Source: Saprospiraceae bacterium
GTDB lineage: Bacteria; Bacteroidota; Bacteroidia; Chitinophagales; Saprospiraceae
Direction: 5' to 3'
Assembly (NCBI GenBank): GCA_021299835.1
Contig: JAJTER010000024.1
Coordinates: forward strand, 1-64,000
DNA: 64,000 bases
In this document: positions 42,634 through 44,327 of the stretch, piece after piece
Numbering within the stretch: position 1 is the first letter of the stretch
Layout of the letters: the number at the start of each line of letters is the position of its first letter
Notes under the pieces: model-generated
The model's input: the letters and a program-made list of their open reading frames with translations, nothing else
The model's database searches: none
Told to the model about the DNA's origin: nothing
Position numbers and translations under genes: made by a program

Positions 42634-42641
42634 AAAATTAA

Positions 42642-42676
42642 AACGAGGCTGTCTAAAAAGATAGCCTCGTTTTTTA
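42642..42676 (+). terminator. Intrinsic terminator
   Basis: aacgaggctgtct-aaaaa-gatagcctcgtttttt. Confidence 0.85.
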
Positions 42677-42773
42677 TGCAACTTTATACTTTGAGCTAAC
42701 AGGGACGCTTTTGACGCGGTGTTTGCAGGGTTCTGCACAGTGTTTCGCAGGGGCGAGCGGGTAATTGCGAGTA

Positions 42774-42795
42774 GAGACGCGATGCTTCGCGTCTT
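42774..42795. repeat. REP-like GC-rich hairpin in intergenic region
   Basis: agacgcga-tgct-tcgcgtct perfect 8-bp stem inside a GC-enriched segment. Confidence 0.55.
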
Positions 42796-42955
42796 CCCCC
42801 CGATAGGTCTTATTTTTATATCAATCCCTAACACGCGATGCTGAATCAGGATCCTCTGCATTCTAAGGATTACCGTTTTTTCGTAGAAATCAGTATCAGG
42901 GCTATTTTTAAAGAATTGTTAAATCTGTAAACTTTTTTTAGGACGGGTCATTATT

Positions 42956-43184
42956 CTAATACAAATTTACAATGTCCATGCCCCCCCTGGGGTCACACGT
43001 CTATAGCCCATCATGCCCCCGGCGGCACAAATTTTCACAAAATCCCCATCATGCCCCTGGCGGCACAAATCTCCACAAATATTTTAGAGCATTAAAAATA
43101 GTCCTAATACAAATTCACCCTGCCCATGACCCCTCCAGGGTCACACGTCTATACCTCATCATGCCCTAGGCGGCACAAATCTCC
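42956..43184. repeat. Intergenic array of two interleaved short repeat types
   Basis: Three copies of catcatgccc(ccg|ctg|tag)gcggcacaaat (approx. 43009-43032, 43048-43070, 43157-43180) and two copies of ctaatacaaatt..(g/c)..ccatg.ccc..gggtcacacgtctata (42956-43004, 43103-43153). Confidence 0.85.
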
Positions 43185-43193
43185 TTATTTTTT

Positions 43194-44327
43194 TTATAAA
43201 ATCACTGGTTTTTCTGCATAGACCGTTACACTGAAAATACCTGTGTTTCCATTTTTAAAATCCTCCAGTGCTGCGTTATCAAGATATTTACTCAAAATAT
43301 CATCAGGAATAATAATGGGTTTTTCCTTTTGTACGGAAATATTTAAGAAGCCATTGGTTGAAATGAGCGCTAGGTAATCCTCTTTTTGAATAGCCCCCGC
43401 AACGCAACCTGCATACATTTCAGCATCCTTTTGTAAATTTTCCGGCAATTCCCCAATGAGCACCACATCAGAAATACTGAAATGTCCGCCGGGCTTCAAT
43501 ACCCGGTAAATTTCTTTGATGACCCCTTCTTTGTTTGGTACCAAATTGAGGACACAATTGCTAACCACCACATCGGCAACATTTGATTCAACAGGCATCT
43601 CCTCGATATCACCTTGCAAAAAATGCACATTAGTAAATCCAAGCTTTTTTGCATTAATTCTCGCCTTTTCTATCATGGCTGTCGTGAAGTCAATACCAAT
43701 AACATTCCCTGTTTCACCAACTTCTTCCCTAGCAATAAAACAATCATTTCCTGCACCACTTCCTAAATCAATCACCGTATTTCCTTTTTGAATTTTTGCA
43801 TATTGTGTTGGTAATCCACAGCCCAAACCCAAATCAGCGTCAGGATTATATCCTAATAGATCAGTGTAATCATCGGTCATAATATTATACACTTCCGTAG
43901 AGCAGCCTCCTGCGCCACAACAAGAAGATTGATTAACCTCTTTTTCTTGCAAAGCAATTTCACTGTATTTTTGCTTCACAATCTCCTTGAGTTGAACATC
44001 CGTTTTCATTTTCCCTAAATTAAAATGTTTGAAAAAATCATTCCATAATACTTGTACCTGCTCCCATTTTTGGTCGTCGATACAGTAACAAACTTTAGTG
44101 CCTTCAATGTCACCTTTTATTAATCCAACCGATTTTAATTCTTTTAAATGTTGAGAAACTGTACTCTGAGCAAGGGGCAATTCATCTACAATATCCCCGC
44201 AAATACAAGTATTTCTTGCTTTCAGTAAGTTAAGGATGGCTATTCTCGCCGGATGAGCTAATGCTTTGGCGTATTTAGCAATCTCAATTTCTGTTTGAAT
44301 AAAATCAGTCGGTTTGGCAGCAATCAT
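43194..44327 (-). CDS. arsM: Fusion of ArsR-family regulator and arsenite methyltransferase (ArsM)
   Basis: N-terminus [56 protein letters not shown]-terminal [65 protein letters not shown]. Confidence 0.92.

Follow-up and report, generated by a model that had tools for sequence, protein, structure and literature searches.

A stretch of 64,000 nucleotides from a Saprospiraceae bacterium (referred to here as the window) carries at 42956-43184 an interleaved array of two short repeat types, A and B, and raises the question of what kind of element these repeats form and what maintains them. On the evidence set out below, the array is likely to be one site of a REP-like non-autonomous hairpin family belonging to the genome's Y1 transposase of subclass 1.2.

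Composition and setting of the array

A preliminary description of the sequence had listed three A and two B copies, and pattern matching in the window confirmed both their number and their coordinates (Table 1). The A unit follows the pattern CATCATGCCC-NNN-GCGGCACAAAT, which is matched exactly three times and never in 100 shuffles, and no further A copy was found in the 64-kb window when up to 3 mismatches were allowed. The second half of B (GGGGTCACACGTCTATA) is confined to the array site within the window. The order A-B-B then A-B given at first has to be corrected: on the plus strand the units run B-A-A then B-A, and the earlier order fails also because it would need three B copies. The two 77-nt B+A units are 84% identical to each other. 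All units at the site face the same direction, with no inverted pair there.

Table 1. Coordinates of the array units and of neighbouring features in the window.
Feature	Position	Strand	Remarks
Terminator-like hairpin GAGGCTGTCTAAAAAGATAGCCTCGTTTTTT	42637-42673		End of upstream gene; read from sequence
Further dispersed repeat	42771-42874		Contains GTAG-preceded hairpin AGACGCGATGCTTCGCGTCT; outside the A/B system
Neighbouring dispersed repeat	42887-42955		Copies elsewhere in the genome 95-98% identical
B element 1	42956-43005	-	Tag CTATAGACGTG then hairpin; stem decayed (CCCCAGGGGGGGC)
A element 1	43009-43032	-	ATTTGTGCCGCCGGGGGCATGATG
A element 2	43047-43070	-	ATTTGTGCCGCCAGGGGCATGATG
Extra B-A module, approximate extent	43078-43186		Own species; missing at the orthologous site of G148, G048 and G153
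B element 2	43104-43153	-	Tag TATAGACGTG then hairpin TGACCC-TGGAG-GGGTCA
A element 3	43157-43180	-	ATTTGTGCCGCCTAGGGCATGATG
Fused ArsR-type HTH and methyltransferase gene (arsR-arsM)	43194-44327	-	3' end towards the array

The array had been said to contain no ORF; one mechanical ORF of 65 amino acids (42972-43169) does span it, but we found no support for that ORF. We agree that the layout is not CRISPR-like, given the irregular spacing, the two repeat types and the palindromic units. As regards the neighbours, the downstream ArsR-ArsM assignment stands, with an ArsR-type regulator and an ArsM-like methyltransferase joined in a single protein, while for the proposed upstream dehydrogenase-cytochrome gene there were only DUF7133 and cytochrome matches, all sub-threshold. 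Because the arsR-arsM fusion gene is on the minus strand, the array is flanked by two convergent 3' ends. The intergenic DNA at 42637-42955 also holds three or more further families of dispersed repeats, which are present in many copies across the genus.

Hairpin anatomy, dispersal and turnover of the units

Small internal inverted parts had been noted in both repeat types, which is correct for B and less cleanly so for A. Read on the minus strand, B consists of the tag CTATAGACRTG followed by TGACCCC-NNN-GGGGTCA, a 7-bp stem with a 3-nt loop. Tag positions A9, T12 and G13 are invariant among 28 B copies of the genome. No GT[AG]G tetranucleotide was found at the 5' foot of B, where the tag CTATAGACRTG (CTAYARAC) stands instead. 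In the stem 91% of cells are paired, the first pair is T-A (15) or C-G (8), and the second shows one G-C / C-G exchange; since none of 500 shuffles and no slid version matched the paired share or the covariation score, we regard the pairing of B as conserved. The A unit (ATTTGTGCCGCCAGGGGCATRATGG on the minus strand) has a weaker hairpin around TGCC-GCCAGG-GGCA, and its best fold, TGCC/GGCA with outer pairs, is 71% paired, which lends it modest support. The first B copy of the window looks unconstrained, because its stem is partly lost here yet intact at the orthologous place in three relatives (G148, G048 and G153).

Copies elsewhere in the genome and in relatives, by which the preliminary description was to stand or fall, were found in abundance. 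A DNA search of the genome, a MAG, returned 39 matches; they were spread over many contigs, and the weakest were at chance level. With a covariance model, B copies numbered at least 42 in the own genome and at least 22, 50, 38, 43, 29 and 58 in six relatives, a range of at least 22 to 58 across the seven genus genomes; these are lower bounds from the best 150 candidates scored per genome. A copies identified by pattern number 10 to 27 in each of the seven genomes, with 0 for a reversed control pattern. Since most of these genomes are drafts with arrays often at contig ends, the copy counts are low estimates. The many intergenic copies of these short palindromic repeats are a trait shared with REP systems. 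A and B co-occur at numerous sites, both in this genome and across the genus, and the earlier idea of a composite dispersed unit that was partly duplicated therefore largely holds.

The spacing of B copies, assessed like the hairpin scan from the best-scoring copies, is strongly constrained. Among the best 150 B copies, all 25 pairs no more than 45 nt apart are inverted with their tags outward, at 35-41 nt, which gives the two inverted hairpins at a fixed short distance that define a REPIN. Wider facing pairs in the same set lie mostly at about 97, 134, 171, 209 and 245 nt; the steps of about 37 nt equal the length of the tandem A unit, and A units are seen between facing B copies. Judged by the anatomy described in PMC6006769 and PMC2817692, inverted pairs with stepped spacing would correspond to the grammar of REPINs and BIMEs. 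The repeats had initially been thought to match no known type of feature; their anatomy is that of REP/REPIN/BIME elements, and the same units adjoin a Y1 transposase gene. Separately, hairpins of the form GGGCGAATTNAATTCGCCC at L036:1778-2271 and L038:1715-1733, GTAG-preceded in L036, resemble canonical GTAG REPs, but the genome yielded no class-2 RAYT gene.

Modules are gained and lost between relatives. At the window site G148, G048 and G153 have B-A-A, to which the own species adds a further B-A of about 108 bp, and G151 and G152 have another gene and no array. The partial duplication suggested earlier is thus borne out as an extra module, but a divergence of 16% between the two B+A units means that it did not arise simply by recent tandem copying of the adjacent one. 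At C203 an additional A stands between the two B copies of the own genome relative to G150, and G153 has lost a B.

The Y1 transposase gene and its relatives

The sole Y1 (HUH) transposase gene (PF01797) of the genome lies on contig C78, not on the contig of the array, and no second PF01797 gene was found in the genome. Directly 3' of its stop codon the units run A-A-B-B'-A-A, and in the own genus only the 3' side carries the array. The gene occupies the same place in 6 of 7 genus genomes and is 92-98% identical where intact; two copies are disrupted, by a frameshift in G148 and by an in-frame stop in G150, where the B pair beside the gene is gone. In G152, which has at least 29 B copies, the gene was not detected although the genome is 88% complete, which speaks against a link between gene and repeats. 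We thus find a stable single-copy transposase gene flanked by its own repeats, and not the multi-copy mobile gene with a hairpin near each end expected of IS200/IS605, since there is one copy at the same place across the genus.

The protein shows the motifs DHIH, WQ and YIQSQKEHH, and residues D63, H64, H66, W104, Q105, Y124, Q128, H131 and H132 are invariant in 13 of 13 sequences. An HUH motif, Y-x-x-x-Q-x-x-H-H, WQ and a length of about 150 amino acids are the features of TnpA-Y1 subclass 1.2 in the motif table of PMC6006769, and by these motifs the enzyme is a member of that subclass. It passed the NCBI IS200 model (63.8 bits, cut-off 55) and is not of the RAYT sequence type (NCBIfam REP_Tyr_transpos, 27.4 bits, cut-off 80). 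The predicted structure (pLDDT 84) matches the ISDra2 and IS608 TnpA proteins and, more weakly, the REP-bound RAYT 4er8. Subclass 1.2 has been described as low-copy, from Cyanobacteria and Bacteroidetes, and with 'no' under REP (PMC6006769); the automatic REP search in that study demanded a GT[AG]G foot. Our search of open papers turned up no description of repeats belonging to subclass 1.2.

We compared 80 named loci encoding relatives of the transposase, nearly all from Bacteroidota (Flavobacterium, Chryseobacterium, Lacihabitans, Parvibacillus, Draconibacterium, Chitinophagaceae, Bacteroidales, Ignavibacteria and others), with more distant parts of the contigs that carry them. Hairpin density was 2.24/kb within 200 bp of the gene and 0.21/kb more than 3 kb off, and local repeats of at least 40 bp were present at 84% of loci as against 7% of control windows. 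The strict tag CTAYARAC followed by a hairpin occurred 67 times in the 149 kb lying up to 1 kb from the gene and 0 times in 785 kb further off; the control mixes intergenic and coding DNA, and the contrast is inflated because far DNA is mostly coding, but hardly enough to account for 67 against 0. The strict tag with hairpin was present in 26 of 80 loci, and a relaxed tag had densities of 0.73/kb near the gene and 0.034/kb far from it, leaving about two fifths (relaxed) to two thirds (strict) of loci without a tag, a further point against the link. While the tag is shared among loci, with variants such as CTATARACAT and CTACAAACAG, the stems differ (GACCCC, GACCTC, GATGCC, GCCTC, GCTCC). The T/C variant of the tag requires 6 changes on the protein tree against 13.3 when shuffled, with none of 500 shuffles as low, a clustering that common descent alone could explain. 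A general A-type motif (TGYCGC with a hairpin) was only 5-fold enriched and present in just 15 of 80 loci. Across 150 genomes of the family, the gene was present in 9 of the 10 with the own-type B pattern and in 64 of the 140 others (p~0.007, although kin are not independent). In Ca. Parvibacillus calidus 20 of 21 tagged copies lie beside the transposase gene, with little dispersal. At the locus of that organism (L123) the tagged hairpins, about 20 in number, are arranged in tandem with a period of roughly 237 nt.

Proposed mechanism, alternatives and relation to known systems

We consider the system to be best read as a GTAG-free analogue of RAYT-REP. TnpA-REP and IS608 enzymes bind folded single-stranded hairpins on one strand, and a 5' tetranucleotide acts in the choice of cleavage site (PMC8266576). 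Acting in an analogous way to RAYT/REP and IS608, the present transposase would bind the B hairpin folded in single-stranded DNA, as on the lagging strand, with the CTAYARAC tag, a few nucleotides before the GC-rich hairpin, as a guide, and would cut and rejoin next to the hairpin, so that modules are copied, moved or rearranged between intergenic sites. B would then be the substrate and inverted B pairs the mobile unit, and A may be a second hairpin that serves as a spacer amplified in place in steps of about 37 nt. Binding, cleavage and the guide role of the tag are here ascribed to the enzyme by that analogy, and it is probably the transposase rather than recombination that moves the modules.

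Recombination between repeats could nevertheless produce part of the pattern, and the strongest alternative, which we think unlikely, is that the arrays are ordinary slippage or recombination repeats in or beside which the transposase gene merely inserts, mobilizing nothing. Some genomes have local tandem arrays with little dispersal, so that tandem amplification without transposition is possible, and the extra B-A module of the window is bordered by A copies, which could have undergone unequal recombination. In G153 (L198, G153:C49) a second gene of subclass 1.2 is bracketed by two direct copies of a different hairpin repeat, and the corresponding sites of G000 and G152 (L199, L200) have a single repeat copy and no gene, which fits insertion into a repeat, although loss by recombination would also explain it. 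A 29-nt part of these repeats is dispersed in all seven genomes and is not exclusive to that gene, so that they are no proof of specificity between enzyme and repeat. Slippage or recombination would not lead one to expect a phylum-wide tag with changing stems, nor close pairs that are exclusively inverted with tags outward; the main transposase gene keeps a fixed position within the genus instead of hopping among repeats, and dozens of dispersed sites require some movement.

It is very improbable that the array regulates arsR-arsM, as a cis-acting RNA or otherwise, or that it terminates transcription of the two convergent genes: hairpins do lie between convergent 3' ends, here and at several other arrays, but the array is downstream and not upstream of arsR-arsM, which speaks against a regulatory RNA for that gene, no Rfam family came near cut-off in an Rfam scan, dozens of unrelated sites carry the same units, the array is missing at this place in G151 and G152, no T-run directly follows B, and a separate terminator-like hairpin is present. 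Equally remote is that these are hairpins of another, absent element (an integron attC, a CRISPR, or the GTAG/CGTC REPs of a class-2 RAYT), since the GTAG-preceded hairpins nearby and elsewhere and the CGTC within the tag variant ACGTCTATA are outweighed by the lack of a GTAG foot on B, the commoner variant ACATGTCTATA in which CGTC is not conserved (which argues against a CGTC-tagged REP), a layout that fits neither CRISPR, with no spacer regularity, nor attC, and the failure to find a second PF01797 gene.

Beyond this genus, we lean towards an unrecognized REP-like system across much of Bacteroidota, in which subclass-1.2 transposases would maintain modular CTAYARAC-tagged hairpins with changing stems and would have arisen from the IS200 side of the family as a parallel to GTAG REPs. 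A subclass reported to lack partner repeats has tagged hairpins beside many of its genes. If this reading is true, it would add an independent second case, with a different tag, of Y1 transposases becoming domesticated, repeat-maintaining enzymes, here in a class-1 branch that has tagged repeats of its own. Such a branch would also supply naturally matched enzymes and repeats from many genera, with which the tag's role as guide could be tested in vitro, and its elements may be behind some of the small repetitive hairpins, and some of the contig breaks, seen in Bacteroidota.

One of the closest known counterparts is the REP and RAYT/TnpA-REP system (REPtrons of class 2 TnpA-Y1, with REPINs and BIMEs), which shares the short tagged hairpins dispersed between genes, the inverted pairs, the mosaic arrays and an array beside a single-copy, stable Y1 HUH gene. 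It differs in its GT[AG]G tag, as against CTAYARAC a few nucleotides before the stem, and in its YIxxNP motif, as against the YIxxQxxHH of what is by motif a class 1 enzyme; the second hairpin type in 37-nt steps and the phylum Bacteroidota also set the present system apart. Subclass 1.2 as described in PMC6006769 agrees in its motifs (DH[IV]H, WQ, Y-x-x-x-Q-x-x-H-H), low copy number and occurrence in Bacteroidota, but is given there as without REPs, whereas most loci here have flanking repeat arrays, many with tagged hairpins. With IS200/IS605 elements (IS608, ISDra2) the transposase shares its fold and family, and recognition of hairpins would be expected; in contrast to them, there is a single gene copy at a fixed position, and the hairpins are arrayed and dispersed rather than one subterminal hairpin per end of a mobile gene. 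Subclass 2.6 (RAYT group 5, with atypical structures, in Bacteroidetes) resembles the present system in its phylum and in the non-GTAG hairpins beside its gene, but has the motifs NH[LIV]H and YIH[QN]NP and a longer protein.
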